Assembly (NCBI RefSeq): GCF_004328645.1
Contig: NZ_CP031395.1
Coordinates: 459,501 to 523,500 of the forward strand
Direction: 5' to 3'
DNA length: 64,000 nt
Source: Hylemonella gracilis
GTDB taxonomy: Bacteria > Pseudomonadota > Gammaproteobacteria > Burkholderiales > Burkholderiaceae_C
How positions within the stretch are numbered: position 1 is the first letter of the stretch; the number at the start of each line of letters is the position of its first letter. Below the pieces are notes generated by a model, which was not told the DNA's origin, did not search any database, and saw only the letters and a program-made list of their open reading frames with translations. Below are positions 1,788-57,410 of this stretch, one piece after another. A program made the position numbers and the translations under genes.

Positions 1788-1798
1788 GAGATTTGCCT

Positions 1799-3264: not shown

Positions 3265-3361
3265 GTCCGTTTTCCAAGAAAAGTTGCGATGGCGCCGATT
3301 CTTGGGCTGGGCCGACAAAAAGGAAATTGCCTAAATGTGCAGAGCTGCCATACATTTCCGC

Positions 3362-4258: not shown

Positions 4259-4292
4259 GTCGCCACTCCTGAGCCGCGATTTCCGAGAAGCC

Positions 4293-5188: not shown

Positions 5189-5189
5189 G

Positions 5190-5504: not shown

Positions 5505-5551
5505 TCGTGGTGTGTGTGCGCGCTCATTATATGCAGGTAAATGCCTGCATG

Positions 5552-12839: not shown

Positions 12840-12848
12840 GTCGGCGGG

Positions 12849-17928: not shown

Positions 17929-18012
17929 GGCAACAGGTCGTGAACAAGCCGCGCGGCGGCCCGGCCTGCGCTGTACCTGCCATGCCCGTCTGGCATGGCA
18001 CCCGGGGGTATT

Positions 18013-36215: not shown

Positions 36216-37226
36216 ATGAACAGCCCCACCCCCGCCTCCCAGGTCGTGCGCACGGCGCAAGGTGTCGATGCCTACGATGCATCGGCCAAGCAGAAGGCCG
36301 CGGCCAAGCTGTCGCGCATTCCCGTCAAGGTCGAAGCTGGCGAAATCCTCAAGAAGCCGGAATGGATCCGCGTCAAGGCCGGATCGCCGACCACGCGCTT
36401 CTACGAAATCAAGGACATCCTGCGCGAACACAAGCTGCACACCGTCTGCGAGGAAGCCTCCTGCCCCAACATCGGCGAATGCTTTGGCAAGGGCACGGCC
36501 ACCTTCATGATCATGGGTGACAAGTGCACGCGACGTTGCCCCTTCTGCGACGTGGGCCATGGCCGGCCCGACCCACTGGACGCGGACGAACCGCTCAACC
36601 TCGCCAAGACCATCGCCGCGCTCAAGCTCAAGTACGTGGTCATCACCAGCGTGGACCGTGACGACCTGCGCGACGGTGGCGCGGGCCATTTCGTCGACTG
36701 CATCCGCCAGACCCGCGCCTTGTCGCCGCTGACGCAGATCGAGGTGCTGGTGCCCGACTTCCGCGGCCGTGACGACCGCGCGCTCGAAATCCTGAAAGCC
36801 GCACCGCCCGACGTGATGAACCACAACCTGGAAACCGTGCCGCGCCTCTACAAACAGGCCCGCCCCGGCAGCGACTACCAGTTCAGCCTGAACCTGCTCA
36901 AAAAATTCAAGGCCCTGCACCCCAACGTGCCGACCAAGAGCGGCATCATGGTGGGCCTGGGCGAGACGGACGAGGAAATCCTGGACGTGATGCGCGACAT
37001 GCGCGCGCACGACATCGACATGCTGACCATCGGCCAGTACCTCGCGCCGAGCAACAGCCATCTGCCAGTGAAGCGTTATGTACATCCGGACACCTTCAAG
37101 ATGTTCGAGGACAAGGCCTACAAGATGGGCTTCTCCCACGCCGCTGTGGGCGCGATGGTGCGCAGCTCCTACCACGCCGATCAGCAGGCGCACGCTGCGG
37201 GCGTAGGTGTGAGCGATCAGAATTAA
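36216..37226 (+). CDS. lipA: Lipoyl synthase
   Basis: This 336-residue radical SAM enzyme has the auxiliary cluster motif [13 protein letters not shown] and the radical SAM motif [13 protein letters not shown]. It keeps [14 protein letters not shown] downstream. It inserts two sulfurs into octanoyl-lipoyl domains of 2-oxo acid dehydrogenases. The stop at 37226 marks the last clearly native gene before the inserted transposon; the end of the protein ([11 protein letters not shown]) looks normal or nearly so. Confidence 0.95.
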
Positions 37227-37228
37227 AA

Positions 37229-37259
37229 GCGAAAATTTAAAATTAAGCGCGAAAATTTA
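37229..37259 (+). repeat. Two 11-base direct repeats, candidate left-end transposase sites
   Basis: GCGAAAATTTA occurs at 37229-37239 and 37249-37259, exactly 20 bases apart, directly after lipA. Spacing of about 20 bases is reasonable for TnsB-type binding sites. A related but diverged sequence occurs inverted near the right end: the complement strand reads GCGAATTTCGTTTCATT from 57410. The match is partial. Confidence 0.45.
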
Positions 37260-41489: not shown

Positions 41490-43916
41490 ATGCAAGGAAT
41501 TCTAGAGACGCGAGTTCGTGGAGCCGAGCAACTCAAGACCGATGAAAACGTTCGGGCCGCAGTTCTCGGGCTCATGAGAATCACACTGCAGCATGCGTGC
41601 GTCGTGCTGGGCGAGTGGATCGCGAACACCCTCCGGGCTGACCCCTCGAAGCTACAAAAATTTACTGGGGTTGACCTAAAGGACTTCGTCGCACCCGCAG
41701 ACGGTGAACTCATTGGGTTGCTGTCCGAACTGCTAGTGGCGGTCGAGAACTTAGGGTGGAAGTCTGCCGGCCGCCAGTATTGGGAGACAGCTTCCCTGTC
41801 CGATCCGCTCAGGCGCCTCGTCGGGAAGTCGAGGGCGAACGTCGAAACGGTACTGCTGGCATTTGTGCGTGAGCGCAATGATGGCGTCGAAGGACACGGT
41901 CTGCCTGGCGGCTACGATCCAGAGGCGGACGTGGCCGTCATTCGTGGCCTGATCGCAAGGGCTGCGCCATTCCTCCCAATAGTCGCCGATGATAGCGAAA
42001 CACTACTGATCCCTCCCCTAGGCGGGCGCGACGGCACGCCACTCAAGACGTTGAAGCTCTATGGTGGTGACCCAATTTGCTACCGACGCTTGATCGCGAC
42101 CTCCGCCGGCAAGATCAGAGTCGAGGCCCAGATTTCTCGCGCGCTTCTCAAGCGAGAACCTGTCATCTTCGAGGTTCCAAACTTGCTTTTGGAACTGCCG
42201 GCGCGATCGGCGCCCGAGTACTCCATTTGCGAGCCAGGATGGGCACCGGATTGGCGGCCATTTGTACTCATTCCTGACAGGTTGGCTGCCATTCAGGAAT
42301 TCACTGGTCGTACGGTGGAATTGACCTCGCTCGAAGAATGGGCGGACGACATGGACTCACGCCGGTGCATGGTTCACGGTGACGGCGGCATGGGGAAGAC
42401 GACTCTAGTCATCGAATTCTTGCACCGTCTTCTGGAAGGTGAGACTGAGGTCAAGTGGCGCCCAGAGCTGATCACGTTCTACACCGCGAAGAAAACGCGT
42501 TGGGGACTTCAAGGTTTGGAACACATATCGGCGCAGGATGTTGGTGTCGCGGACGTTGCCGTCGAGATCGCGCGTCTTCACTCCACCAAGCCCCTAGATA
42601 GATCCTGGTACGACAAGAGTCCCAAGGAAGTAGTCCAGAAGCTCGCAGGCCTGCAAGCGCAAATGCACTTGAAGAGGGATGACCATCTGATCATCCTCGA
42701 CAACACCGAGACGATGGCCAAGAACGATGATGATATTCGCGCACTTGGCTCACAGATCAACGAATTGAGCAAGCATGTCGGTCGCGTTATCCTGACCTCG
42801 CGACGTCGTGAGCAGATCGAAGCGTTTCCCATTCAGACAGAAAGCTGGTCGCCAGAGGAGGGGTTGGAGTTTTTGAAGAAACGGGGGCGAACGCTCAAGT
42901 GTCAGTCGATCATCCTTGCAGGTCCATCGACCTTGAAGACGTACTCCAAGGCGCTCAACAACAAGCCGATCGCGCTAGAAGTTTTTGCCCAGGCCGCTTC
43001 CGCACCAGGGGAGAGTCTGGAGCGCTCCTTCGAACGCGTCCAGCGGATGCAACGTCAAGACCTCGGGCAGTTCTTGTACGACGATGCATGGACCCGCTTG
43101 GCGCCCGATATGCGGCACGTGATGTTGCTGATGAGCCGTATTGGCGATGTGATCGACCAATACATCATTCAGCTCTGCTGTCGTGTGGCCAACGTGAATG
43201 TGGCGGCTGCGAGCGAGGCCATCGAGGAGAGCAAAGGCATCGGAACGGTGACGAAGATTCAGGGGATCCTGCAAGTTGCTTTCAACCCTGAGTTCTCGAA
43301 CTACTGCGCCGAGCGCACAGAGGTATTAGATGGAAAAATCGTTCCGTCGCCGGAGAACGTAAGCTGGATTCAAAAGCGTTACCGAGAATTCGTCACTGAT
43401 GCTTCGGCCCAGGTGCGGGACCGAAACACGCGTGCATTTGTGGTCCCGTCCGCGCGCGCAGCCTGGAAGAGTTTTCAAGACGGCAACATCGATCAGGCCT
43501 TTGTGCACTACGAAGCGGCCTGCTCTGAGGATCCGGACAATGGCTACCTCTACGACAGGTTCGCATACGCGCTGTTCAGCCAGCGTCGATACGACGCTGC
43601 GCTCGAGAAGGCAATGAGAGCAACCGTGCTGCTTCCAGACGAGCCTGAGCCCTGGTTCACTCGAGGTTTGGTTGAAGCGCGCCTGGGGCGTGCTGACGAC
43701 GCGGTCAAGGATTTGAATCGCGCGGAGTCACTCGGAAAGCCAAAGCACCTCTGTGAACTGCAGCGAGCATACGCGCACGTCCACTCTGATCCCAAGGATT
43801 TTGAAAGTGCGTCGCAGTGCGTCGAACGCGCTCTCAGACTCGCTCCGAAAGACAGGTTCCTCGGCAGGTTTGTCGCAGAGGCAACGGCGTTCAAGAACCG
43901 CTGGCTGCGCGATTGA
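41490..43916 (+). CDS. HEPN-NB-ARC-TPR (STAND) protein, candidate anti-phage sensor
   Basis: This 808-residue protein has three parts. Residues 1-150 are helical, with FVRERNDGVEGHGL (R129-x6-H136), a HEPN-type nuclease motif. Residues about 255-500 form a STAND/NB-ARC NTPase with P-loop MVHGDGGMGKTTLVIEF (297-305) and Walker B HLIILDNTET (399-407), then a GxP-like NNKPIALEV. From about residue 665 TPR units follow (GNIDQAFVHYEAACSEDPD, RRYDAALEKAMRATVLLPD). STAND proteins of the Avs type bind a phage protein through such repeats and then switch on an N-terminal effector. The ATG at 41490 has a strong RBS. It is a single gene. Confidence 0.8.
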   Translation: MQGILETRVRGAEQLKTDENVRAAVLGLMRITLQHACVVLGEWIANTLRADPSKLQKFTGVDLKDFVAPADGELIGLLSELLVAVENLGWKSAGRQYWETASLSDPLRRLVGKSRANVETVLLAFVRERNDGVEGHGLPGGYDPEADVAVIRGLIARAAPFLPIVADDSETLLIPPLGGRDGTPLKTLKLYGGDPICYRRLIATSAGKIRVEAQISRALLKREPVIFEVPNLLLELPARSAPEYSICEPGWAPDWRPFVLIPDRLAAIQEFTGRTVELTSLEEWADDMDSRRCMVHGDGGMGKTTLVIEFLHRLLEGETEVKWRPELITFYTAKKTRWGLQGLEHISAQDVGVADVAVEIARLHSTKPLDRSWYDKSPKEVVQKLAGLQAQMHLKRDDHLIILDNTETMAKNDDDIRALGSQINELSKHVGRVILTSRRREQIEAFPIQTESWSPEEGLEFLKKRGRTLKCQSIILAGPSTLKTYSKALNNKPIALEVFAQAASAPGESLERSFERVQRMQRQDLGQFLYDDAWTRLAPDMRHVMLLMSRIGDVIDQYIIQLCCRVANVNVAAASEAIEESKGIGTVTKIQGILQVAFNPEFSNYCAERTEVLDGKIVPSPENVSWIQKRYREFVTDASAQVRDRNTRAFVVPSARAAWKSFQDGNIDQAFVHYEAACSEDPDNGYLYDRFAYALFSQRRYDAALEKAMRATVLLPDEPEPWFTRGLVEARLGRADDAVKDLNRAESLGKPKHLCELQRAYAHVHSDPKDFESASQCVERALRLAPKDRFLGRFVAEATAFKNRWLRD

Positions 43917-44542: not shown

Positions 44543-45088
44543 GTGAACTCACAACAATCCGTTTCCCTCAAAGAACTTCAGGCGCTTTATCCCTACCAGT
44601 TCATCAACCCAGCTGATGTGGACGTTGCCAAGGGCTGGATGCCCATCTTTGCCAAGCTCTGCGCCGACGTGGACCAGACGCTGGGACAGGACAAACTGGG
44701 CTTTCACTGGAGTCAGATCAAGGAGAAGTTCGGATCGGCGCGGTTCTACTACCGCTTCGGGCGCCGCAAATCCGGTACTCGACTGGATATCTGGACGCCC
44801 CAGGGTGTCTTGAGCCAGGAGATCTCGCCCAAACGCAAGGTCAAAACTGAAAAGGATCGCAGCTTCCAGGACATCAGCAGTGCCATCTTGCAGCTGATCG
44901 ATGCTGCCCAAGTCGCGACCAAGAACGTTTGCCTGGCCTGCGGCGCGCCGGGTAGTCCGGACGTCGATATTGGATACCTCTTGGTGCTATGCCCAGAGCA
45001 CCAGGCGCGGCGCCGCAAATTGGACAGCCAGGACGGGCTGATTGACTGGGAAACGCTTGAAGACCAGGACAACCAAGGGAGCACGTGA
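44543..45088 (+). CDS. Small Cys/His protein of unknown function in the island
   Basis: This 181-residue protein starts at a GTG (44543) with AAGGAG upstream. It contains KGWMPIFAKLCADVDQTLGQ and FHWSQIKEKFGSARFYYRF, a conserved-looking central block. C-terminal CLACGAPGSPDVDIG and LVLCPEHQARRR give a CxxC...CxxH zinc-knuckle pattern. The next gene (metallophosphoesterase) starts two bases after its stop, so they form a pair. I do not recognise the family. The pair may be a small defence or toxin-like module. Confidence 0.7.
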   Translation: MNSQQSVSLKELQALYPYQFINPADVDVAKGWMPIFAKLCADVDQTLGQDKLGFHWSQIKEKFGSARFYYRFGRRKSGTRLDIWTPQGVLSQEISPKRKVKTEKDRSFQDISSAILQLIDAAQVATKNVCLACGAPGSPDVDIGYLLVLCPEHQARRRKLDSQDGLIDWETLEDQDNQGST

Positions 45089-45090
45089 CC

Positions 45091-45903
45091 ATGACCAAGC
45101 TCCTGATCTTGAGTGATCTGCACAACGACATTCAGCCCATGCGTGCGGAGGTGGATGGCCGCCGGATTGATGCCGACGCCGACGTCGTGGTTCTCGCCGG
45201 CGACATCCATGAAGGCGTGCAAGCACCGATCTGGGCGCGCCAGGCTTTCCCGGACAAGGAGATCATCCTCGTGGCCGGTAACCACGAGTTCTACGGTCGC
45301 TACTGGAACAAGAACCTGCGCAAGCTACGGCTGAAGTCAGCCGAGCTGGGAATTCATTTCCTGGAGGATGACGCCGTGGAATTGTTCGGGATTCGGTTCT
45401 TGGGCTGTACCTTGTGGACCGATTTCGCTCTGTACGGCTCAGACCAGTCGCGGGACTACATGGCTAAAGCACAAGACCGCATGAACGACTACCAACGGAT
45501 CAAGCTGGACCGTTTACCGGGTGAAAACCGGGAGTGGAAAGAACTGCGTCGCACCCAGCTGATTCCGCTGCTCGCGCGGCGTCGCCACGAGGCGAGTGTG
45601 CAATGGCTGGATCGAGAGCTCACAGCAGGTAGTCCGGAGAAGACGGTGGTCGTGACTCACCACGCGCCCCATGAGCAATCGGTACCCGCAGAGTACAAGG
45701 GACACCCGCTAAGCCCTGCCTACGCGTCAGACTTGTCGCACCTGCTCGGGCGCTCCATGCTCTGGATTCACGGGCACATCCACTTCAACGCGGATTACAT
45801 GGTCGGTTCGACCCGGGTGATCTGCAATCCCCGTGGATATTCCTATGCCAAGCGGGAAGACATGAACAAGGAGTTTCGACCGGATTTGATTGTCGCGGTG
45901 TGA
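45091..45903 (+). CDS. Calcineurin-like metallophosphoesterase
   Basis: The ATG at 45091 gives 270 residues and fits the AAGGGA RBS better than the GTG at 45085. The metallophosphoesterase motifs are complete: LSDLHNDI, VVVLAGDIHEG, VAGNHEFYG, VVVTHHAPHE and WIHGHIHFNADY. These bind two metals for phosphodiester or phosphomonoester hydrolysis. The substrate is unknown. It directly follows the Cys/His protein gene and lies back-to-back with the seven-gene operon that ends at 45912. Confidence 0.88.
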   Translation: MTKLLILSDLHNDIQPMRAEVDGRRIDADADVVVLAGDIHEGVQAPIWARQAFPDKEIILVAGNHEFYGRYWNKNLRKLRLKSAELGIHFLEDDAVELFGIRFLGCTLWTDFALYGSDQSRDYMAKAQDRMNDYQRIKLDRLPGENREWKELRRTQLIPLLARRRHEASVQWLDRELTAGSPEKTVVVTHHAPHEQSVPAEYKGHPLSPAYASDLSHLLGRSMLWIHGHIHFNADYMVGSTRVICNPRGYSYAKREDMNKEFRPDLIVAV

Positions 45904-45911
45904 GATGGGTG

Positions 45912-46418
45912 TCAACGTATAGAGAGCCAATTCAATATCTGTTGGACACAGGCATTTATTTCATTTGAAGTCGTGTCTATCTTCAACCCGGATTGGAGCG
46001 GTACTGAACGTCCGAACATCTTCACAGTAAAGTCCTGCTCCGCTGCGTCCATGCCAGCAAGCCCGCTCCGGCTAATACCGCCTTTAGATCGCACTGCCCA
46101 GCGCTCTATGCGCACGGCCTCGCTGCAATCAAGCTCAACAAGGCGAACGCCAGCCTGTATTTGACTCAAGACCCAGTGCAAATATCGCCCTTCGATAATT
46201 ATCTTTCCAGAATGAGTATTGGCCACCCCCACTGTCTCGGCATCAATCTTGAGATGCTCTTCATACGGCAAATCACCTAAAGAAACTGATAGTTGACGCG
46301 CGCGTTCTTTGACGATCTCGCCACAGTGCCGAATTTGACAGTTTCCCAAATGCGGCGCCAACGCTTTTGCGATCGTAGTCTTTCCGCTCGAACTTCGACC
46401 GTATAGAGCGATGATCAT
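45912..46418 (-). CDS. Small P-loop nucleotide kinase (cytidylate kinase-like)
   Basis: This 168-residue protein starts MIIALYGRSSSGKTTIAKAL, a Walker A (GRSSSGKT) at the extreme N-terminus. It has a strand-plus-hydrophobic pattern (KIIIEGRYLHWVLSQIQ) and a basic lid segment (RIERWAVRSKGGISRSGLA). Size and layout resemble CMP/dNMP kinases and related kinases of DNA-hypermodification pathways. Its start overlaps the stop of the upstream methyltransferase gene (ATGA). It is the last gene of the seven-gene operon. Its acceptor is unknown: a free nucleotide, a modified base in DNA or another small molecule. Confidence 0.75.
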   Translation of the reverse strand: MIIALYGRSSSGKTTIAKALAPHLGNCQIRHCGEIVKERARQLSVSLGDLPYEEHLKIDAETVGVANTHSGKIIIEGRYLHWVLSQIQAGVRLVELDCSEAVRIERWAVRSKGGISRSGLAGMDAAEQDFTVKMFGRSVPLQSGLKIDTTSNEINACVQQILNWLSIR

Positions 46419-47575
46419 CGTTTTACGAATATGGAAATGAACTCCACTGGCTCAGTGGCTTGTCGATCAGAAAGACGCCTCCTAGTAGGCGTTCTCCCAA
46501 CGGGCCCCCAAATTTGGGGCGCCATAGCTTCAAACAACTCGAAGGCTTGCTTTGCCGCACCAGGATACTTTCGTGACTCCCCAAGGACAACGGCACATGC
46601 TCTGCCTGGTTTCAGCACCCTAATCATTTCTTTCCAGCAGACATCCATATCCAGTAGATATTCACTGAGGAGATTACGCCTCTTGCGCTTGTAGCGTGCT
46701 CCAATTTCATCGTTTTTGTCTTCAGACAAGTCCCAGTTCATCCACATATAGAGCAGCCTATGCGCGAGGGCGTAATCGATCATTCCTGCATAGGGCGGCG
46801 ACGTAACAATTAGATCTACGCTGTTCGATGGAACATCTAATTTCCGGGCATCGCCATGGATAATTTTTCCGCTCACTTCCGTGCACGGATTACTTGCCTG
46901 GATCATTGAGGTGGCAAGAATTCGCTCCAAAAAAATCGAAGCGGCATTGTGATCAGCTGGTTGCGCTGGCTTAACATTGTCTGCGATCCAACCCCAGTGA
47001 TGCCTACGTGGTTTACCTCCCGAGGTCGGGGCACTTATCGTAGATGCGCACGCGAACAAAACATCGCTGAAGATTAGTGTTAACAAATGGCGTTGGTCAC
47101 TGTCTACGCGTTCAATCAACTTCCACAGGTAACGCAACTGAGCCAGAGTACCGTCAGAGTACCAAGCGGCCAACTCGGGACTCGAGCCCTCTCCTTGAGC
47201 TCCAACCTCACTCGATTGACAGAGATGTGGCCATGCGAGTTCACCTGCGATTGCGTCACGTAAATCTATACGCAATGGATTCTTGAGCGCCCGCATCTTT
47301 GCTTCAGCAATAAAGACGCAAGCACGGGTCTGGTCATTGCCGAGTGCGCACCGATTGAGGGTGAGCGCCTCAATGACCGTTGTGCCACTTCCTACAAACG
47401 GATCGAAAACTAGCTCACCGGGCGAAGACAGAATTTGGATTAAATGTGCAGGAATTTGCGGAATAAAGTTACCCGCAAAACGGTGCACGGTATGAATAGA
47501 GCTTTCACGGGTGCCTGTGCTGGGAAATGACCAATTCACGCGATCCAGTTCAGCGACAGCAGTCTTTAAATTCAA
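46415..47575 (-). CDS. SPPY-type DNA methyltransferase (first of a pair)
   Basis: The frame begins at a TTG (47575) that overlaps the HD gene's stop (TTGA), giving 386 residues. The SAM-binding motif I is DPFVGSGTT at residues 58-66. The catalytic motif IV is VTSPPYAGMIDYA at 259-262, preceded by a long insertion. SPPY is typical of N4-cytosine methyltransferases. Motif I precedes motif IV, with about 190 residues between them. The second methyltransferase of this operon has the same order and spacing. The target site and whether it protects or activates are unknown. Confidence 0.85.
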   Translation of the reverse strand: MNLKTAVAELDRVNWSFPSTGTRESSIHTVHRFAGNFIPQIPAHLIQILSSPGELVFDPFVGSGTTVIEALTLNRCALGNDQTRACVFIAEAKMRALKNPLRIDLRDAIAGELAWPHLCQSSEVGAQGEGSSPELAAWYSDGTLAQLRYLWKLIERVDSDQRHLLTLIFSDVLFACASTISAPTSGGKPRRHHWGWIADNVKPAQPADHNAASIFLERILATSMIQASNPCTEVSGKIIHGDARKLDVPSNSVDLIVTSPPYAGMIDYALAHRLLYMWMNWDLSEDKNDEIGARYKRKRRNLLSEYLLDMDVCWKEMIRVLKPGRACAVVLGESRKYPGAAKQAFELFEAMAPQIWGPVGRTPTRRRLSDRQATEPVEFISIFVKR

Positions 47576-48855
47576 ATCAGTGTTCCTTGACCAACATCCT
47601 CGGCACTAGCATCCGTTGACTCTGAAAGCACCTGAGACTGAAAGAATTCTGAAGCAAAGTCGCGAATTGCAATAAGCTGAGATCCGGCAAAAGCTTTCTG
47701 AGTAGGAGAGCCGATGCCCAGCAGCCATTTCTTCGACGTGGCTCCGAAAATTTCTGTTGAGCCATCTTCAAACTCAACACTAAGTTTGCGCTCACGCTTA
47801 TCCTTAATGCGATATGCAAACACGGGGCGCTTGATTTCTTTGGCCAATCTCTCGGAGAACGCCATCACTTGGGAATAATTTGGAACAGATCCCGCAAGCC
47901 ACAGTAAAGGAGCCATTTGCCAGAGCTCTCCAGCCGCCCATCGATCTACTGTGTCTCTCGTTTCTTTGACTTTGGAATGCATAAGCCGCGATATCAAGTC
48001 GACGTCTGTCATGTTCCAGTCTTGATCAGTGAATTCTTCAGCTTGCATTGCATGCACGGTTGCATGCAACAGCATCACCTTTGTTGTGAAATCAGGCTGC
48101 GCCAACATCAAGTGGGTATATACATTGCGTCTAAGCTTTATCCAATTTACAAGAGCATTTCGTGCGTCAAGAGCAAAGATTGGATTGCCTGAATTGTTTG
48201 CCCCCATGAGGCATCGCGATAGGCGGACGGGTGCTCCTTTGTCAATTTCTATTCCCATGTGAAACGCAATCCGGTGGAGATTGTCAATATTGTCAAGATC
48301 AATCTCTCCTGCCACGGCCGGCCCCAGGGGCCCTCTGCCTGCGATGGTCTCAGTAATGACTTTCAGATACTTGTCGGCCTGGCTACCAAATATTTGAGTA
48401 CACCAATCTTGAATGCCCGTCTCCCGACCGCGAAGGACTTGCTTATTGACGCCACCGACATCTGATGGATTGCTGGCTATAAGTTCGTAAAGCTTGCCTT
48501 CGTGATTAAACGTGGAATCAACATAGGCGAATGCCTCTTCGACAAGATGACCGAATGCAGTAATTGCCCAATCGTGCATAAGTGCGGCGGCTTGAAGAGC
48601 AATGCGCTCGCCTGGATCTAGTGCGTTCGAGAAGCCGACGATAGTTGAAAGATAAGCTGTGCCAAGCACGTGCTCAAATCTATTGAGTCCTGCAATCCCT
48701 GGAAGCGCCATCGAATCGATGTTGGAGAGTCGAATGTGGCGCATGCGCTGAACTACTGGCGCACGCATAAGATCAGATAGCTCTGGACTAAAACTTATTG
48801 GCCCATAGAGGGCATCCAATACTTGGACTTGTCCGAAGCCCTTTTGCCAGCTCAT
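47572..48855 (-). CDS. SAMHD1/dNTPase-like HD-domain hydrolase
   Basis: This 427-residue protein begins with the entry typical of dGTPase/SAMHD1 proteins: LYGPISFSPELSDLMRAP and VVQRMRHIRLSN. The HD metal ligands follow in NRFEHVLGTAYL (H62), AALMHDWAITAFGHLVEEAF (H94, D95, H103) and EIDLDNIDNLHRIAF (D186-D191). Such enzymes hydrolyse dNTPs or related nucleotides; some starve phages of DNA precursors. The C-terminal 150 residues are unassigned. ATGA overlaps link it to its neighbours. Confidence 0.85.
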   Translation of the reverse strand: MSWQKGFGQVQVLDALYGPISFSPELSDLMRAPVVQRMRHIRLSNIDSMALPGIAGLNRFEHVLGTAYLSTIVGFSNALDPGERIALQAAALMHDWAITAFGHLVEEAFAYVDSTFNHEGKLYELIASNPSDVGGVNKQVLRGRETGIQDWCTQIFGSQADKYLKVITETIAGRGPLGPAVAGEIDLDNIDNLHRIAFHMGIEIDKGAPVRLSRCLMGANNSGNPIFALDARNALVNWIKLRRNVYTHLMLAQPDFTTKVMLLHATVHAMQAEEFTDQDWNMTDVDLISRLMHSKVKETRDTVDRWAAGELWQMAPLLWLAGSVPNYSQVMAFSERLAKEIKRPVFAYRIKDKRERKLSVEFEDGSTEIFGATSKKWLLGIGSPTQKAFAGSQLIAIRDFASEFFQSQVLSESTDASAEDVGQGTLI

Positions 48856-50126
48856 TGTAAATTCTCACCCGTTTTTTCGATCTTGATCAGATCGCAATAT
48901 GAGGCAAGAAGCCCCCAATCAGCTGCCTCCTGCGCCGTCTCCACAAAGACAGTGAACATACCTTCCCACATTCTTTCAGATGGCACAACATGGCGGACGA
49001 ACACACGGTATTGCTCACGTGATTCAAGATCTGCCAAGGCATAGCAATCTTCATAGATGACCAGCATTGGTTGGCGGCCCGCTCCCTTGGCCGCTTGATC
49101 TTTGATCTTGTTAAAAGCAACGGACGACGCAGTATGCAGACCCGCGAATGACTCCCCTGACGTCACATGTTGGACCCCGAAATTTCGCGTCAAAGATGTA
49201 GTCGCCTCCATGTAAATGGAATCTGCGTAGCCGAAATGTCGCGTGTACGCATCTACCACCACGATTTTTGATCGAATATCGTGCCACTTAGTAGTCGAAT
49301 TCTTCCCAATGTGATTCTGTAAGTACTTCACAAATTCCAGTGGATGACGAGATGCCGTCATGTATTGGACGAGCTTGCCGTCCTCCAAGAACGCGGTGGC
49401 CAACTCCGCCAATATGTGGTTTGCACGCCCATGCTGAGACAGCGAGATCGCCACGGATGCTGGTTGTTCAGCGGACGCGTCTACTGCTTCACCTTCTGGA
49501 TTTATTATCTTGTGAACCTTTGCTTGCAACGTTTCAGACAAGGGGATACCCGTCCACTCCCACGGCTTCGTATTGTTAAACCGCCTATAAGCGGACTTTA
49601 TGAACCGAAAAATTGAGAGATGCTTAGGGCTAGCTGAATCTACAAAAAGTGCAAAACGCATGTAGATTTTGTAGATCCGCCAGAAAGTCAAAACCAAAGC
49701 GACTACAAGAAATGAAAACGCTGAAACTGCAAGAATATTGGCGGTAAATTTAGACCATCCATAGGATGTACCAAACACTTGAGCCAAAAGGCACAGAATC
49801 ACCGCTGGCAAACAGAGCAACAGAATCTGGAACAGCCGGTTCGTCAAATATGGGGACTTTCGATCCCTTCCGATTAGCGTGTAGAACCCTATTAGAAATG
49901 CGAGCAAAACGCCTGTTGCAGTAAGCGTATCTTTGGGAGAGGGAAATTCGTACCCCAGCAACTGCCAAGTATTGGCGCTTGTCGCCTCAACGCTGGATGT
50001 CGTTGATGTAGGCATAGGAGCCGCTTCGCTGTTAGCGGCACTTATGGGTAACGACGCAATTGGGGCGTTTGCCGTTTGGGTTGCACTACTGCCACTCGGC
50101 GCAGGGATAGTCGGTACTGTTGTCAT
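48852..50126 (-). CDS. Membrane protein with a degenerate RecA-like C-terminal domain
   Basis: This 424-residue protein has a Pro/Ser/Thr/Ala-rich N-terminus (residues 1-55), then three membrane helices at about 68-86, 98-118 and 129-148, and a basic linker. Residues about 225-400 look like a RecA/KaiC-type sheet: VAISLSQHGRANHILAELAT, LVQYMTASRHPLEFVKYLQ, KIVVVDAYTRHFG, and a Walker B-like PMLVIYEDCYALAD (353-361). No classical Walker A lysine is present in the first block. It may be a membrane-tethered sensor or effector. I recognise no named family. Confidence 0.7.
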   Translation of the reverse strand: MTTVPTIPAPSGSSATQTANAPIASLPISAANSEAAPMPTSTTSSVEATSANTWQLLGYEFPSPKDTLTATGVLLAFLIGFYTLIGRDRKSPYLTNRLFQILLLCLPAVILCLLAQVFGTSYGWSKFTANILAVSAFSFLVVALVLTFWRIYKIYMRFALFVDSASPKHLSIFRFIKSAYRRFNNTKPWEWTGIPLSETLQAKVHKIINPEGEAVDASAEQPASVAISLSQHGRANHILAELATAFLEDGKLVQYMTASRHPLEFVKYLQNHIGKNSTTKWHDIRSKIVVVDAYTRHFGYADSIYMEATTSLTRNFGVQHVTSGESFAGLHTASSVAFNKIKDQAAKGAGRQPMLVIYEDCYALADLESREQYRVFVRHVVPSERMWEGMFTVFVETAQEAADWGLLASYCDLIKIEKTGENLQ

Positions 50127-50788
50127 ACCAGGTCACCCAACCGAACTCGCTTCGAAATATTCAAAAGCAAGCGACTTTTACTCAACTCTTCATCAATTGC
50201 TTTCCCCCACAACTCCAATTGACTGAATAACGTTGCACCCTCTAGCTCCACATTGTTTACTTGGCGGATGCATTTTTGCTCCAATGCCATCTCAGAAATA
50301 CCATTAGTCTTTAGCTCCTGCACCGCACTGGCACGGGATTCGATATCGTAGACAGGCAATTTCAGCTCAAGGCCGTGTTGCTTCAAGGTACTCTCTAGGA
50401 TTCTTGTTGCCTGGGGCCCCTGTTCCGGCCAGCCCCCCTGATAACCCGCGTACCCTAGAGCAATATTACGAATACCGGTTTGTCGCGCGATATTCACCCC
50501 GGTTACTACGTAAGCGCTTTGGCAAGGAAGGCATGTCTGCTTGTGAAAGAAATGCTGCGTCCCACGCAATGCCGGTTGAGGGATTTGCAGCCACTCAGTA
50601 TCGGGGGGAAGTAACGAGGCAAGCTCACGTAACCGTTGCTCGACATTGTTGATACCAAAAAGGTGATCAGCTGTGATCGTGACGAGCTTCAGAGAGTGCC
50701 CAGCACGATGTAGTCGGAGCGCGGCGAGAGTGGAGTCTCGCCCTCCGGAAAACATCAAAATCACCTGCTCAGTAGCCGACTCTGCCAT
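50123..50788 (-). CDS. PP-loop ATPase (QueC/ThiI-type superfamily)
   Basis: This 221-residue protein carries the PP-loop motif LMFSGGRDSTLAALRL (SGGRDS at 14-19), which binds ATP and adenylates a substrate. A CLPCQ motif (C86, C89) and C173 in EQKCIRQ suggest a metal or sulfur site. PP-loop enzymes include QueC (7-cyano-7-deazaguanine synthase), tRNA thiolases and Dnd/Qat-type proteins. In defence they can modify DNA, tRNA or proteins. Its stop overlaps the membrane-protein start. A 74-base gap separates it from the upstream methyltransferase gene. Confidence 0.8.
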   Translation of the reverse strand: MAESATEQVILMFSGGRDSTLAALRLHRAGHSLKLVTITADHLFGINNVEQRLRELASLLPPDTEWLQIPQPALRGTQHFFHKQTCLPCQSAYVVTGVNIARQTGIRNIALGYAGYQGGWPEQGPQATRILESTLKQHGLELKLPVYDIESRASAVQELKTNGISEMALEQKCIRQVNNVELEGATLFSQLELWGKAIDEELSKSRLLLNISKRVRLGDLV

Positions 50789-50862
50789 CTCCCATCCCCC
50801 CTGTTCCTATATTGGAAAGTACATTGGAAAAGGCATTCTGCCACGCATATAGTGGCGGTGTG

Positions 50863-52284
50863 TCAGGCTACTTTCTTGGTGATCAGCACGCGCTCTTCAC
50901 TCATTGTTGCGCCCTGTGAATTACGCTGAGGAGTTCGCTTCTGCGGAATAGAGCGCTGCAAATGGCCTTGAGTATTCATTCCAAAGCGCCGTAAAAAATC
51001 GGCGGTGATCTCCCCGAGTGGAAGACGCACCCCTCCCACCATTCGATCTCCAAGCGTCCAGATGGCGATACCTCCTGTGCACAACAAACTTGACGCGCTC
51101 TTCAATGTGCGTTCGTAGTCACTCAAGAAGGCAAGGGATTTACTCAGGAGATCCCGCCGGCCGAGGGCCTGAAGGTTGCCAATGAATTCTTTCGCGGCAA
51201 CTGAGGTAGTGCACAAAGCATCCGCGCACTCAAGGCTTCCTCTAAGACTCCCCCCCAAACTTCGACCGTCAATGGCATACGCGTTTTGAAATGAAGTCTT
51301 CCCCGATGGGAGGTCTACTTCAGGAATCCAGCGTAGCTGCAAGTAGGAAAACTGCCCATAGGAAACAGTGGATCGATTGTCTCCATATGGAGGCGATGAA
51401 ATTATCAGCTGTGCAAACGCTCTCTTGTTTCTGGAAAACTCATTTACGGTGCCACAATAGGTTCTGATTGATCGCGTAACGCGGCCTCGGTGTAGCACCC
51501 CCCGATTGCTCAATTCTTCGGCATGCCAGGTCACACGTAGTACCGAATCCTGAACCACGTTTTGAAAATACTCAACTGCGTCTGAGATTTTCGAGAGTTC
51601 TTCTGGGGGGCGAATATGAAGCTTATACGTTGAGCTGCGACTATTACTCACGGCTCGAACAGTCTCCGCAAATGACAACCACATTAGCCTACGAGCCCAC
51701 AGGTTGGATTCGTCGCAGATTGCGCGGCGGATCCGAGAAAGTTGAATTGCCGCAGGATCATTGAACCATTTGTGCAATTCTGGGAAATCGACATCAATGG
51801 ATTTCCCACGATCGTTTGAGACCCTGCGCAGCATTAAATTTACCTTTGTGGCATATGCTTTGCCAAGAAGAGGACCACTCTTGGCTTGACAAGCAAGAAT
51901 TGCCAATGGATTGAGATCAATGCCTGTGAAATTCAAATCTCGGGCAAGACTCTCAACCAAAGTGGTTCCGGCGCCGACAAACGGATCCAAGACGTTGGTA
52001 ATTTTCGGGTTCGCGCGAAGTGCGGCATCAAGCAAGTCCCCTTGCATTTGTGGAACCATCATCGCAGGATATTTGATCAGGCCATGAAGGCCATACCTAT
52101 ACGATTGCTGGTGATAGTCCCATGGTGAATTGGCCAACTCACTCGTGTTAAAGGACACCGACGCCGCTTCGTTGTCCCCCTCAATCGATAAATCGGTTGA
52201 GACAACGTGATGAGGTTTTGTCATGAGCTCCGTTGATGGTGCAAAGATCGCGTCCTCCGGCGCGGAGTTCAGCTTCTCACTCAT
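50863..52284 (-). CDS. SPPY-type DNA methyltransferase (second of a pair)
   Basis: This 473-residue protein has motif I as VLDPFVGAGTTLVES (100-108) and motif IV as IISSPPYGDNRSTVSYG (297-300), with the same motif order and spacing as the methyltransferase at 46415. The region between has RRLMWLSFAETVRAVSNSRS, matching the equivalent insertion in the other protein. The two are clearly related but diverged. They could methylate the two strands of an asymmetric site. The ATG (52284) overlaps the HTH gene's stop. Confidence 0.85.
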   Translation of the reverse strand: MSEKLNSAPEDAIFAPSTELMTKPHHVVSTDLSIEGDNEAASVSFNTSELANSPWDYHQQSYRYGLHGLIKYPAMMVPQMQGDLLDAALRANPKITNVLDPFVGAGTTLVESLARDLNFTGIDLNPLAILACQAKSGPLLGKAYATKVNLMLRRVSNDRGKSIDVDFPELHKWFNDPAAIQLSRIRRAICDESNLWARRLMWLSFAETVRAVSNSRSSTYKLHIRPPEELSKISDAVEYFQNVVQDSVLRVTWHAEELSNRGVLHRGRVTRSIRTYCGTVNEFSRNKRAFAQLIISSPPYGDNRSTVSYGQFSYLQLRWIPEVDLPSGKTSFQNAYAIDGRSLGGSLRGSLECADALCTTSVAAKEFIGNLQALGRRDLLSKSLAFLSDYERTLKSASSLLCTGGIAIWTLGDRMVGGVRLPLGEITADFLRRFGMNTQGHLQRSIPQKRTPQRNSQGATMSEERVLITKKVA

Positions 52285-52631
52285 TCCAGACCTCCTGAGT
52301 TGACTCGAGGGTTCACCGCTAACGCTCCGATGTAGTGATCTAAGAATTGCACCAAAGCCAAAAGTACGTTCCTTGTATGTTGCAGATCCTCCCGAGTCAT
52401 CACGGAAATTGATTCAGGGGCCATTTCATTTATTTCGTTTTCTGCAGATTTAGCGCCCCATACACCCAGCACGGCTTTAGTTCTTGGGATTGCGCGACCT
52501 GACTGAGACACGCGCCACAGGGTTGCGGGACTCAGGCCAACTGCCTCAGCTGCGCTCTCAACAGAGCCATATTTACGAATCGCCTGCTGTGCAACAAGCT
52601 GTAGCTTGCTGTCGGGGGTGGACTTGGGCAC
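52281..52631 (-). CDS. Small HTH regulator heading the seven-gene operon
   Basis: The best start is a GTG at 52631, with AAGGA nine bases upstream, giving about 116 residues; a longer frame from 52694 adds an unlikely leader. The HTH reads KYGSVESAAEAVGLSPATLWRVS, a compact domain with AAEAVGLS-PATLWR as the recognition helix region. A helical C-terminal part follows. It probably controls the operon, because two copies of a 9-base motif lie in its promoter and a related pair lies inside its own gene (52422-52442). Confidence 0.7.
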   Translation of the reverse strand: MPKSTPDSKLQLVAQQAIRKYGSVESAAEAVGLSPATLWRVSQSGRAIPRTKAVLGVWGAKSAENEINEMAPESISVMTREDLQHTRNVLLALVQFLDHYIGALAVNPRVNSGGLE

Positions 52632-52664
52632 CTTGGAACATCCTTGTGGAATCAATATACCCCA

Positions 52665-52690
52665 TAAATGAAATAAACGAAATGAATAAA
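52665..52690 (+). promoter_or_regulatory. Tandem 9-base repeats, candidate operator of the seven-gene operon
   Basis: TAAATGAAA-TAAACGAAA-TGAATAAAA lies just upstream of the HTH start. Two 9-base units differ by one base, with a third partial unit. On the opposite strand the same pair of units occurs within the HTH gene (52422-52442) as AAACGAAATAAATGAAA. Operator use is inferred. Confidence 0.4.
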
Positions 52691-52825
52691 ACACTATGAA
52701 GGTCCAAATTCCCGCTATCTCAGCGCAATTGAGTAAGAGGAGATTTCGGAGTTCAGCTCGATAGGCGAGAGATTGGACAGCTCAGACTTCTCAACCTCAC
52801 TGGGGACAGTCCATCAACTCAAGGG

Positions 52826-53839
52826 CTACTGAAACCGAGAACGCCAATCTGCGAACTTTTCGATCAACTCTTGATACCAAGCCGGCGGCTCGTTGAAGTC
52901 CTTCCCCAAGTGGTTGTACCGAATCGCCCTGGCCAGCCAGGCGACTTCCAACCTTCCTGCTAGATCCACCATCAACCAGGAAACCAGCTGCACCAGGTGA
53001 TGCCGCTCCATCAGCGGCATCGTCTCGAGGCCGATCCGTCCCGAGACCTTCACCAGGTCCGTCACCTGCAGCTCCCCGCAGACATGCTGGCGCAAGGTGA
53101 CTGTCTTGTGGCGAGTCAACATCAGCCGGACCAGCTGATGCATGACCCGCATCACGTCTAGATCCACACTCTGGGTTTCCTCCTCCGCAATGGCGCGGCA
53201 CAGCGCGGCATGGAAATCCAGAGCATCCTCGTCATAGCTCCAAATCTCCTCTCTCGGCGAATCAGCGAGTGGGCAACCACAGGCGTGGCAATTGCCCATG
53301 GACCCCACCTCGGAAACCTTGCCTTGCCCCATCTCCATGCGGTGGAAGATGACTGGTGCACCACACTGGGCACATCGGTCCCTGAGCATCACCTGGTGCC
53401 GGATGCACATCGTGTTGAAGGACACTCGCCAGGACCTACGGTAATAGGGCTTCTCGTCCTCGGCCAAGCAGACAGGGCAGAACTGCAAGCCGAAACCTTC
53501 CCGCTTGCGGTGGTACATCATCAGCGTCTGGATCCAAGGCAACGTTCCCGCAGCCCTGAATTTCGGGTACAGCACCCCTTCATACGCGCGCAAGGTCGTG
53601 GCGTGAGCAACTTGCCGCAGCGTGCCCGTCCTATCCGCCAACTCATTGACCAGCCAGTCTGGTCCCAGGCGATCAACATCCCGGTTCCAGACCTGGCGCT
53701 GTCCACCAAAGATCAGGTTGCAGAAGGTCTGCACCTTCAGGCCATGCCCCCAAGCCAGGCGGACCAGCCAGGAGGTCAGCAACTCATCGGGATACGGCTT
53801 GTACCGGATGGGCCACAACGACGAGGTCAGGCCCTTCAT
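52826..53839 (-). CDS. tniQ: TniQ/TnsD-type target selector
   Basis: The ATG at 53839 gives 337 residues; a GTG 17 codons upstream is possible. It has a TniQ domain: SLWPIRYKPYPDELLTSWLVRLAWGHGL (quoted as PYPDELLTSWLVRLAWGHG), with zinc pairs in LQFCPVCLAEDEKPY, CIRHQVMLRDRCAQCGAP and NCHACGCPLAD. TniQ proteins recognise the attachment target and recruit TnsC. Eight bases separate it from the upstream tnsC frame. It is the innermost gene of the transposition module. Confidence 0.9.
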   Translation of the reverse strand: MKGLTSSLWPIRYKPYPDELLTSWLVRLAWGHGLKVQTFCNLIFGGQRQVWNRDVDRLGPDWLVNELADRTGTLRQVAHATTLRAYEGVLYPKFRAAGTLPWIQTLMMYHRKREGFGLQFCPVCLAEDEKPYYRRSWRVSFNTMCIRHQVMLRDRCAQCGAPVIFHRMEMGQGKVSEVGSMGNCHACGCPLADSPREEIWSYDEDALDFHAALCRAIAEEETQSVDLDVMRVMHQLVRLMLTRHKTVTLRQHVCGELQVTDLVKVSGRIGLETMPLMERHHLVQLVSWLMVDLAGRLEVAWLARAIRYNHLGKDFNEPPAWYQELIEKFADWRSRFQ

Positions 53840-53847
53840 GACGGTCG

Positions 53848-54746
53848 TTAAAACCGGCGGTGCTGCTTGCGCCGAGAGGGCGGTACCCACCGGATGGCGC
53901 GGATGCTCTCAAGCGTGATTTCCTCGGTCCTACTGCGGATCGCATCGACCGCCAGCTCTTTGAAGAGATCGCACAGATCACCCAGCGTGCCTTCACTGCG
54001 CAGGCACATCTCGCTCATCTTTTCGGGGATTTGAGGTCCGATGGCTTGCGCAAGGGGGTACGCCGCTCCAAGGTCGCCAGCAGAGTGCCCACCTCCCTGC
54101 CTGGCCTCCAAAGAGGCAACTCCTCGGGCATGAACCGGCTCGACATCTGCGGATCGGCCACGAAGGCGTTGTACGCATCCTCGATACCGGCCGCGATGAT
54201 CGACACCTTGGACTCATTGCCCAGACTCTTGAGCGCGTTGCGAAAATCCCTTTGCCGGTTCAGACTGCCTGCAATCAGGTGGTGGATTTCGTCCACGATG
54301 AGCACCTTGACCCCCAGCTCCCGGAAGAGATGCTTCACCTGGGAATTCTTCTCCTGGACCGAGGAACTCGGCTTGTAGGTCGCCATCAGCGCGTCCAGGA
54401 TCCGAGAATAGAAGGCGGAGACATCCGGCGCCGGCGGCGCTTCGACCATCACCACCGGGCATGTCGTTACCTCGGCGGCCGGGTCCAGATCCGGAGGATG
54501 CAAGGACATGAACCGCTCAAGGATGGAGGTCTTGCCATTGAAGGAGGGTGCCACCAGCAGCATGTTGGGCATGCGGGTGATCCGCGGGTAGTCCAGCAGA
54601 TCCTCCATCCTGGCCAGAATCTCCTTGGCCCGGTCGTAGGTCATCCAGGTTCCCTCCCGGATGGCTCGAATGCGTACATCATCTGGTTCGCCCAGCAGGC
54701 GCTCGGCCTCCGGACTCAAACGGGATTTGAGCTCAGACGTCGCCAT
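53848..54746 (-). pseudogene. tnsC: TnsC/TniB ATPase, frameshifted before its C-terminal domain
   Basis: The main frame (ATG at 54746, to 54015) encodes 243 residues with Walker A-like LLVAPSFNGKTSILERF, Walker B VLIVDEIHHLIAG, and sensor region SIIAAGIEDAYNAF. It ends with LRKPSDLKSPKR. The next frame (53848-54111) continues exactly where the family should: PEKMSEMCLRSEGTLGDLCD, and ends IRWVPPSRRKQHRRF. One extra base in the G4 run at 54025-54028 joins them. Alternatively, a -1 frameshift at AAAAG (minus strand) would give both forms. TnsC bridges TniQ and the transposase. Confidence 0.82.
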
Positions 54747-56662
54747 CACTCGTCATCCAAGGCTTCGATGTCGTCGGGGTCGTAACCGCGCACGGACGGA
54801 GGAGGAGCACTGGACGCCGCAGGCTGGGAAACCGTCGGCATGGTCTGTTTCTTGGTCTCGCGCTGCTTGGCGTGTTCCACCCTGCGCTGCGCCTCGCGCC
54901 TGGCCGTCTTGGTCTTGGCGGCCGCTTCGGCCTCAATGGCCCGCTGCTCGTTCAGGATGGCAAACACCAGCTTTTCGTTTTCGGGATCGATGCCCTTTGC
55001 CTTCGCTGCGCGCTGGGCATTGCGCAACTCCCAGATGCTCACCGGCGGCAGACTCGTGTCCCGGTAGGGAATGGCACAGAACCGACCACTCAGCTCATCG
55101 AAGAAGTAGAGCTGGCTGACGTCTCGCGGGTCTCGGTGAAAACGGAATGTGCGCTTGTGTTTGGGGAATTCAGGATGCGGCGCGTTGATCCACGGCCGCA
55201 GGACATCGTGGTAGTAGTGCACGTTGTCGATCACCACGCCATAGCCCTGCACCGGCCGCTCGACGTACGGCGTGAAATGGATCCGCAAGGTTTCCTCGTC
55301 CAACCGGCGTGCCGGCAATCCGCGCCCTGGTTTCTTCTTCGTGCCCAGCAGTCCCTCACGGAACTTCACCAACGGGGGCATGCCGATGCCGGTGTGCACC
55401 TCGCGGTGATAGCGGGCAAAGAAGAGGATCAGCCACCGCTCGATCTCCGCAAAGGTCATGCAAGCGTTGCCCTCGGCGTCGTACTCGCCTTTTTCATCAG
55501 GCCCGGAGAAGGTTGAACCTTTTACGCTTTTGAGACCCTGCGTGACCGTGCCCATCAGGCGTTCGATGTGGGCGCCATACCGCGGCTTTTTGACCGGCCG
55601 CAGGTGGATGTCGATGTCATATTCCCGGCAAGCCATCTTCAACATGTCGCCACGGAACTCCTTGGCGTTGTCCATGTGGATAGCGCCCATCACGCCCCAA
55701 CATGGCCACTCAATGTGTTCTGCGATTGTCAGATGCCGGAGCCAAGCTTCTTTCGGAAGAATGGCATGGGCGATGCACATGCCGGCCGACATGGCCGACG
55801 GCGGGTCCAAGGTCAGGTACATGCCCAGGCACACCCGGCTATCAACGTCGATCGCCAGAGTGATCCACGCCCTGTTAATCGGCTTGCGGTGCTCGTCATC
55901 GACGATGATCACCGGCAGCAAGGTATGGTCGATCTGAACAATCGCGAGAGGCCACTCCGCATCCGGAATAGTGCCCTTGGCGGGGTCGTGCAGGGCAAAG
56001 GCCGCTGCCTCACCAAGACGCCTGCGCGTGCGCTCGCGACCGGACGTCTGCTTCAGGCGGAGCCTGATGGTGTTGGTTGCTGGTAGACGCAGGCCGGCAT
56101 TCGAACAGCGGCGACGGATCTCCAGAACGGTTTCGGTGATCGAAGGCTTCTGCTCTGTGTCGTGGAAGCTCTCTATCGTGTCGCGGATGATGGCTTCGAC
56201 CTCGGGCGAGATGCGCCGCCCCGCCTTGCCGCCTCCGGCGCGGCCCCGCATAGGCAGCAGTGAGGAAAGAAGCCCAGTGCGTCTGAAAGCATCCAGCCAC
56301 CGGTAGACGGTCGCCCGATTGACGCCTGCGTCGATAGCGATCTGCTCAGCCGTCTTGGTTCCGTACAACGACTGGTTGACCAGCAGCGGCTCAAGCCACT
56401 TTCTGCGTTGCTCCGCGATCGCCCAATCCGACTCGGGGATCTTCGACAGATCGATCTCTACGGACTCAGCGCCGCTGGCAGTGGAGATAGGCTGGGGAGG
56501 CCGCAGATCGCCAATAGTCAGCAAGACTTTCGCACCTGTCTCCAGATCCTTCGCCAATATCTTGTTCAGATCGGCGACCTCGAGAATGGCGTAGTCCCGG
56601 TCATTGCTGCTGACGATCGCCCCTTTGCTCAGCGGCAGTTGGTTGGGGATCACCTTGGCCAT
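54746..56662 (-). CDS. tnsB: TnsB/TniA-type DDE transposase
   Basis: This 638-residue protein has an N-terminal DNA-binding region with an HTH (QIAIDAGVNRATVYRWLDAF). The DDE core follows with D245 in VQIDHTLLP, D331 in IHMDNAKEFRG and E367 in HIERLMGTV. A Mu-transposase C-terminal beta barrel and a charged tail complete it. The three catalytic residues are present and normally spaced. Its stop overlaps the tnsC start (TGATG). Its start lies 13 bases inside the tnsA gene. Confidence 0.94.
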   Translation of the reverse strand: MAKVIPNQLPLSKGAIVSSNDRDYAILEVADLNKILAKDLETGAKVLLTIGDLRPPQPISTASGAESVEIDLSKIPESDWAIAEQRRKWLEPLLVNQSLYGTKTAEQIAIDAGVNRATVYRWLDAFRRTGLLSSLLPMRGRAGGGKAGRRISPEVEAIIRDTIESFHDTEQKPSITETVLEIRRRCSNAGLRLPATNTIRLRLKQTSGRERTRRRLGEAAAFALHDPAKGTIPDAEWPLAIVQIDHTLLPVIIVDDEHRKPINRAWITLAIDVDSRVCLGMYLTLDPPSAMSAGMCIAHAILPKEAWLRHLTIAEHIEWPCWGVMGAIHMDNAKEFRGDMLKMACREYDIDIHLRPVKKPRYGAHIERLMGTVTQGLKSVKGSTFSGPDEKGEYDAEGNACMTFAEIERWLILFFARYHREVHTGIGMPPLVKFREGLLGTKKKPGRGLPARRLDEETLRIHFTPYVERPVQGYGVVIDNVHYYHDVLRPWINAPHPEFPKHKRTFRFHRDPRDVSQLYFFDELSGRFCAIPYRDTSLPPVSIWELRNAQRAAKAKGIDPENEKLVFAILNEQRAIEAEAAAKTKTARREAQRRVEHAKQRETKKQTMPTVSQPAASSAPPPSVRGYDPDDIEALDDE

Positions 56663-57315
56663 GCGTCATCTCCACCTCGGGCAATGAGTACCTCACTCCC
56701 GAATGGCACGTCCAAGTCAGTCACCAGATGCCCTGACAGGAGCATCGACCAAATGACCGGCAACCAGTGCAGCTTGTCATCTTCTGTCTGAGCAAGTTGC
56801 TCCAGCACCTGGTGATGGGATCGGGGAGTCTCGTCAACGCAGTCGAGCACACGTTCGATGTCTGCGACCGCTGGGCTGGTGTTTCTGTATGCGCGCAGGA
56901 ATTTGAGATTCGCCAGGCGGGGTGTTCGAATCTGGCGCTGGTCGACGATCTTGAACTCCCAGCCCTGCTCCTCGGCAAACCGCTTCGCGCAATCGAATTT
57001 GAAGGCGTATTTGTCGGCGTTCCTCGCCAGGTCGTCCGTGTGCTTGACGTCCACGAGGGTTCTTTTGGGCTCCTGCCCGGACACGGCATCCGGGTGGTAG
57101 CGCACCAGCACATCCGGCACATAGCCACGGGGCACACCTGGGACGGGCACCCTGACAGGTTGAGGTTCGAAGGAGTGAACTGCCGGGTCGAAGTCGAGCA
57201 GCAGAAAGTAGTCCTTCTCGAGCAAGGACTCGAAAGCATCGATCTCGGCGTTCTTGCGGCTGGAATAGCTGCCCGTCACCACCAGATGATTTTTGGGAAT
57301 CTTGCGGACCGGCAT
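56650..57315 (-). CDS. tnsA: TnsA-type endonuclease
   Basis: The ATG at 57315 has AAAGGG upstream and gives 221 residues; an earlier frame start (57348) is less likely. It has the TnsA endonuclease core: AEIDAFESLLEKDYF, VPGVPRGYVPDVLVRY with aspartate, and RTLVDVKHTDDLARN with the D-x-K pair. A winged C-terminal part follows. TnsA cuts the 5' ends so that the element moves by cut and paste. It is the outermost gene at the right end, the Tn7 order. Confidence 0.92.
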   Translation of the reverse strand: MPVRKIPKNHLVVTGSYSSRKNAEIDAFESLLEKDYFLLLDFDPAVHSFEPQPVRVPVPGVPRGYVPDVLVRYHPDAVSGQEPKRTLVDVKHTDDLARNADKYAFKFDCAKRFAEEQGWEFKIVDQRQIRTPRLANLKFLRAYRNTSPAVADIERVLDCVDETPRSHHQVLEQLAQTEDDKLHWLPVIWSMLLSGHLVTDLDVPFGSEVLIARGGDDAWPR

Positions 57316-57410
57316 CCAGACCCTTTCACGATCACCCCACGATCGCACTAGCTTCTGGATTCTGTCGCATTCAATTCTGAAAGAAAAGTCCTAGAATGAA
57401 ACGAAATTCG

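Follow-up and report, generated by a model that had tools for sequence, protein, structure and literature searches.

A mobile operon of Hylemonella gracilis combines a SAMHD1-like phosphohydrolase, two predicted DNA methyltransferases and a YcfA-like PP-loop protein in a possible genetic-conflict module

We analysed a stretch of 64,000 nt of the Hylemonella gracilis genome (contig NZ_CP031395.1, positions 459,501 to 523,500), the whole of which is called the window here and supplies all coordinates unless another locus is named. Seven open reading frames (ORFs) on the minus strand fill positions 45912-52694 and form an operon. The genes are listed from the operon head, with the short names used throughout and the basis of each assignment:

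52281..52694, minus strand: HTH, a small helix-turn-helix protein at the operon head, start codon GTG
50863..52284, minus strand: MT1, a predicted SPPY DNA methyltransferase (PADLOC MTase_II model, SPPY and DPFxG motifs)
50123..50788, minus strand: PP, a YcfA-like PP-loop ATPase and predicted sulfur transferase with CxxC...C (sequence, fold, motifs)
48852..50126, minus strand: MEM, a membrane protein with a C-terminal RecA/KaiC-fold domain that lacks Walker A (hydrophobic segments, fold, motif scan)
47572..48855, minus strand: HD, a SAMHD1-like HD phosphohydrolase with intact catalytic residues (PDB sequence matches, motif conservation)
46415..47575, minus strand: MT2, a predicted SPPY DNA methyltransferase that is the partner of HD in distant relatives, too (Pfam N6_N4_Mtase)
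45912..46418, minus strand: kinase, a small P-loop kinase-like protein, similar to (deoxy)nucleoside monophosphate kinases (AAA_18)

A sequence-only reading of this DNA had described a seven-gene operon on a single strand, with 4-base overlaps at five junctions, a 74-base gap at the sixth, and an AT-rich, island-like composition. All of these features were recovered. The overlaps are ATGA at four junctions and TTGA at HD/MT2, the gap lies between MT1 and PP, and the G+C content is 0.488-0.512 across the seven genes versus 0.636 for the window minus the operon. The 1-kb G+C profile is 0.48-0.51 over 46000-52999 and reaches 0.50 again at 40000. The end of the operon previously placed at 52631 is a later in-frame GTG of HTH, and the ORF start is at 52694. 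Predicted promoters and terminators in 45500-53000 showed no excess over shuffled sequences.

The earlier proposal depended on the genes occurring together elsewhere, and they do travel together. A MEM profile built from 28 homologs was searched against one genome per species (84,980 species) and against viral contigs. It retrieved three loci and one locus, respectively, which is probably an underestimate because only two peptide patterns were used. All four relatives, which are the alphaproteobacterial loci L002 (Hyphomicrobium), L003 (Bosea) and L004 (Rhodoplanes) and the IMG/VR viral contig L005, carry the full cassette on one strand in the order PP, MEM, HD, MT2, kinase, second SPPY methyltransferase, and the junctions between candidate starts and stops overlap or nearly touch. 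The window retains the order PP-MEM-HD-MT2-kinase, with MT1 sitting in front, together with HTH. The identities to the relatives are 39-50% for PP, 34-42% for MEM, 42-47% for HD, 46-49% for MT2 and 31-46% for the kinase (for L005 over 85 residues only). HTH has no counterpart in any of the four and was therefore rejected as a part of the system, so that the earlier seven-gene set stands for the six genes that recur together, but not for HTH.

Co-travel was also visible among more numerous homologs, of which the best 120 were listed from 161 for MEM, 173 for PP and 251 for HD. Taking equal length of the longest contig to mean the same contig, we counted contigs of at least 5 kb and exactly equal length in the lists for MEM (90), PP (72) and HD (89). 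The numbers shared were 38 for MEM/PP, 37 for MEM/HD and 29 for PP/HD, versus a mean of 0.3-0.5 and a maximum of 3 when the lengths were shifted by 1-100 bases. The pairwise distance matrices of MEM, PP and HD were correlated with r values of 0.87, 0.93 and 0.93 (0.79, 0.86 and 0.75 for subsets distant from the window), and 0 of 2000 permutations gave values as high. This agrees with a travelling cassette, and shared host ancestry would give the same signal. Taken together, the set in all four relatives, the contig sharing and the matching distance matrices rule out a chance neighbourhood of island genes. The genes form one unit, a mobile block.

MEM matched the host alone among 399 genomes of the host's order, and HD at E 1e-20 matched the host and one distant relative among 369 genomes of the class and likewise among 398 of the phylum (overlapping samples). 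Scans of viral contigs with MEM, PP and HD yielded one full copy, on the same contig each time (L005, also retrieved as L008 and L011). Neither MEM nor PP had a match in plasmids or in 50,697 phage records. For HD, there were weak matches in eight Listeria phage records and matches in four plasmid records, including those of Rhizobium etli, Bacteroides and Phocaeicola.

Among the protein identities proposed earlier, the SAMHD1-like hydrolase, the two SPPY methyltransferases, the degenerate RecA membrane protein and, with a changed role, the PP-loop ATPase are borne out by the results below, and the kinase is borne out in part. The best PDB sequence matches of HD are the phosphohydrolase 2q14 (1.4e-10) and SAMHD1 chains (1.3e-5). 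The catalytic residues H...HD...D are present in 28 of 28 homologs and, as looser patterns, in 120, 114 and 115 of the 120 listed homologs; they are invariant in all seven aligned sequences (from the window, from two close relatives and from four of the distant HD-MT2 loci). HD appears to be a SAMHD1-type phosphohydrolase for which dNTP (deoxynucleoside triphosphate) hydrolysis is predicted. The PADLOC search, made with the protein models alone, gave no match to HD at E 0.1. As a separate observation, the C-termini of HD homologs P0241-P0360 end in ACLL in 16 of 120 cases and in ACLF in 12 of 120, and many others have like endings, a possible docking motif.

Both predicted methyltransferases contain SPPY and DPFxG. 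MT1 matches the PADLOC MTase_II model PDLC03360 with 302 bits over residues 46-471 of 473 and the Mad2 model weakly, and MT2 matches Pfam N6_N4_Mtase.

PP is closest to YcfA, by sequence and by fold, among the matches listed (22% identity). According to two papers (PMC6225789, PMC7994395), YcfA and a staphylococcal counterpart act in 6-thioguanine synthesis, and the cluster contains a sulfur-donating pyridoxal phosphate (PLP) enzyme and a NUDIX hydrolase. A CxxC motif plus a distal cysteine, the three cysteines of [4Fe-4S] PP-loop thiolases, is found in 30 of 30 aligned homologs and in 120 and 119 of the 120 listed ones. The QueC domain, which defines the defence proteins Cap9 and QatC, scores 15.9 bits in PP, below the Pfam cut-off of 22, so that membership in QueC-type defence was rejected; a precomputed QueC domain occurs in 3 of 120 listed homologs. 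The family assignment as a PP-loop ATPase stands, but given the closeness to YcfA the earlier role of a generic modifier is replaced by a predicted one: PP points to sulfur transfer onto a purine nucleotide and may bind a cluster.

MEM has three hydrophobic segments and, among the matches listed, a RecA/KaiC fold. Walker A (GxxxxGK[ST]) was found in 0 of 120 listed homologs, and a sequence search of PDB gave nothing below E 0.76. For the kinase, the general family AAA_18 passes its cut-off (38.9 bits), but no specific kinase family does: TIGR02173 remains below its cut-off and PHROG 139, a deoxynucleoside monophosphate kinase PHROG, matches weakly. Helix-turn-helix families match HTH, all below their cut-offs, and it is probably a regulator.

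Searches with HD in viral contigs, plasmids and genomes also uncovered five loci at which a distant HD homolog is followed by an MT2-like methyltransferase:

L012, 6790-11896, one strand: a row of four genes for a flavin adenine dinucleotide (FAD) enzyme, HD, the MT2-like methyltransferase and a protein of which one domain resembles dCTP deaminases, directly after type I restriction-modification (RM) genes
L007, Rhizobium etli plasmid: HD and the MT2-like methyltransferase, accompanied by a protein with a PNP domain and by a FAD-like frame that has 42% identity to its counterpart in L012
L013 and its near copy L014: HD, the MT2-like methyltransferase and a further methyltransferase (checked in L013)
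L019 (G670:C17), 418-5682: HD, the MT2-like methyltransferase, an AIRS-type protein and two proteins without an assignment, one of 428 aa, whose C-terminus looks hydrophobic by eye, and one of 229 aa; an integrase lies at 11847-13106

Because HD and MT2 recur in these five distant loci with other partners, the pair looks like an older core whose partners have been exchanged. Two candidates for further shared genes were rejected. The kinase of L013/L014 is 21-22% identical to that of the window and on the opposite strand, and it matches part of the PADLOC dCTPase model; the P-loop part of the L012 protein aligns with the window kinase over 30 residues around Walker A, with a probability of 34, and its score for AAA does not reach the Pfam cut-off.

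The Tn7-like setting noted in the sequence-only reading was found, and so, in part, were the defence-gene surroundings:

52826..57348, minus strand: TniQ, TniB/TnsC, TnsB-like and TnsA genes, directly upstream of the operon
37208..37259, plus strand: candidate left end of the Tn7-like element, with two 19-base direct repeats (37221-37259) after TGTGAGCGATCAG, at the drop in G+C

Because the Tn7-like genes are directly upstream, the operon is probably cargo of the element. For the 19-base repeats, 0.02 matches are expected by chance; a matching right end was looked for and not found, leaving the left candidate alone. Among the relatives, the Bosea copy has two upstream genes that match the IetA and IetS models with 226.8 and 119.9 bits, HsdR- and HsdM-type proteins precede L012, and the PNP protein of the R. 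etli locus matches a PADLOC effector model. Genes for a tyrosine integrase and a resolvase lie near the Hyphomicrobium copy, and the viral copy is preceded by a putative loader-like ORF. The surroundings suggest a conflict-gene setting, short of proof of defence.

Several other features of the window were recorded. An 808-aa protein at 41490-43916 (plus strand), with TPR repeats above the cut-off and an AAA/STAND-type NTPase match below it, is likely a conflict gene of the same element. An overlapping pair convergent with the operon, 44543-45088 and 45085-45903 (plus strand), encodes a 181-aa protein without a family and a metallophosphoesterase that matches the PADLOC candidate PDC-S10 with 41.3 bits. 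At 17952-18003 (minus strand) lies an nhaA-I riboswitch (Rfam RF03057, 52.2 bits).

The combination of self-marking with nucleotide depletion or modification, as suggested in the sequence-only reading, fits the predicted parts. So does the company of HD, with its intact catalytic residues, a DNA-type methyltransferase and varying nucleotide-handling enzymes in mobile elements, some of them beside defence genes. We tentatively interpret the operon as a mobile module of genetic conflict, directed most likely against phages, in which HD and SPPY methyltransferases would mark DNA and destroy or alter (deoxy)nucleoside triphosphates, and we hold this to be possible, at somewhat less than an even chance. 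What we infer here comprises all reactions, what triggers them, which way the effect goes and what it is aimed at. MT2 and MT1 would methylate the resident DNA, so that unmodified sites tell an invader from self. On meeting unmodified DNA, HD would hydrolyse dNTPs, and PP, by ATP activation of a carbonyl followed by sulfur insertion, together with the kinase would turn a purine nucleotide into a thio-analogue. The replication of the invader would thereby be starved or poisoned, and MEM could be a non-hydrolysing platform or a nucleotide sensor.

Several observations weigh against this interpretation or its components. No nuclease family was found among the seven genes with PADLOC, Pfam, NCBIfam or PHROGs, and no cysteine desulfurase is present in the operon. 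YcfA has no cysteine at the place of the CxxC of PP in the alignment, and a TtcA-like thiolase aligns weakly with PP, with the CxxC stretch alone paired (probability 9). MT1 is the movable and more diverged member, being located at the opposite end of the cassette in all four relatives and only 26-30% identical to their second methyltransferase. MT2 is not bound to HD, because only one (R. etli CP001075) of 32 plasmid records with MT2-like methyltransferases is also among the four HD plasmid matches; a Priestia plasmid with an MT2 relative shows no HD gene among the annotations of the stretch examined. Conversely, the Bacteroides HD relative, from a plasmid record, lies among housekeeping genes without a methyltransferase, which speaks against the HD-MT2 core. 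Lastly, the phage small terminase downstream of the L005 cassette also suits modification of a phage's own DNA.

The last point leads to a somewhat unlikely alternative, a DNA hypermodification cassette. PP and the kinase would supply the own DNA of the element or phage with a modified nucleotide (thio or amino), the methyltransferases would decorate that DNA, and HD would clear away the normal dNTP that competes with the modified one, which is the role of DatZ in diaminopurine phages. That terminase and the location of L005 in a viral contig, the weak match of the kinase to a deoxynucleoside monophosphate kinase PHROG, and the fact that every part can be read as belonging to a nucleotide pathway are compatible with this. 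However, the window and three of the four relatives belong to bacterial contigs, where the genes nearby are of integrase, resolvase or Tn7-like type and not those of a phage replication block, no dedicated polymerase, hydroxymethylase or glycosyltransferase is present among the seven genes, and the phage records searched gave no match to MEM or PP. We regard it as decidedly unlikely that the substrate modified by PP is instead one of its partner proteins, be it MEM, HD or a methyltransferase, as the QueC-like Cap9 modifies CdnD, which would render the nucleotide theme incidental.

A small-molecule pathway that makes a thio-nucleoside antimetabolite against competitors would be in line with the part that YcfA and its staphylococcal counterpart play in 6-thioguanine synthesis (PMC6225789, PMC7994395). 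It is very improbable: among the seven genes there is no family match to a PLP enzyme, a NUDIX enzyme or an exporter, and two DNA-type methyltransferases would be superfluous. At least as improbable is an RM-like system with HD as the nuclease or with a nuclease from outside. MT1 does fit a type II methyltransferase model over nearly its full length, but HD is closest to SAMHD1-type phosphohydrolases, the seven genes include no nuclease family, and the PP enzyme and the kinase would be left unexplained.

The conflict-module interpretation can be extended to a new class of immunity, which we consider unlikely at present. The methylation state would gate a membrane-tethered complex of HD and methyltransferase, and unmethylated DNA would lead to dNTP destruction and to replication-poisoning sulfur-substituted purines. 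HD and the methyltransferase would be a chassis for swapped nucleotide-altering enzymes (thiolase, FAD enzyme, deaminase, AIRS-type protein, nucleoside phosphorylase). If true, methylation self-marking would be joined to an attack on the nucleotide pool, two separate principles of immunity, and enzymatic nucleotide thiolation would enter phage defence. The pair with its swappable partners would be a handle for finding further systems unnamed by the libraries searched.

The operon shares single parts with several known systems. Among the matches listed, the closest relative of PP is YcfA, which belongs to the 6-thioguanine cluster of Erwinia amylovora (PDB 9kq6, 9kq7, 9kq9, 9kqd), but the operon has HD, methyltransferases and MEM and no PLP enzyme or NUDIX hydrolase family, so that membership in the Ycf/Tgs cluster was rejected (Pfam scan). 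The [4Fe-4S] PP-loop thiolases TtuA, NcsA, TtcA and LarE have the cysteines in common with PP, but their fold is less close than that of YcfA among the matches listed. SAMHD1-type dNTP triphosphohydrolases, including defensive dGTPases, have the same HD fold by sequence and the same catalytic residues, whereas HD is here embedded in a multigene operon with methyltransferases. Defensive dCTP deaminases of the AvcD type share the theme of the nucleotide pool, and L012 contains a protein with a P-loop and a dCTP-deaminase-like part, but the operon of the window has no deaminase domain.

Type II RM, MADS and BREX have SPPY methyltransferases in common with the operon, and families and motifs predict the DNA methyltransferase of a type II RM system; MT1 fits the type II model and, weakly, Mad2. 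However, an ordinary type II RM system was rejected, as the operon has no cognate endonuclease family, and the other parts of MADS and BREX were not found by family matches among the seven genes. Dnd systems contain DndA/D/E-type partners; no such families occur among the seven genes, and Dnd/Ssp phosphorothioation was likewise rejected. The sequence-only reading had known no name for the set, and none is given by the PADLOC protein models, Pfam, NCBIfam or PHROGs. Judged from listings, the open-access literature searched does not describe it either, and a description is possible in subscription papers and bioRxiv, which were mostly outside that scope; PP-loop or HD proteins in conflict systems are mentioned in listed papers such as PMC10853773 and PMC7824862. 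Because the set has no name in the models searched and does not contain the defining parts of RM, Dnd/Ssp, QueC-type and Ycf/Tgs systems, we call its composition, on the basis of gene content and these comparisons, categorically new.

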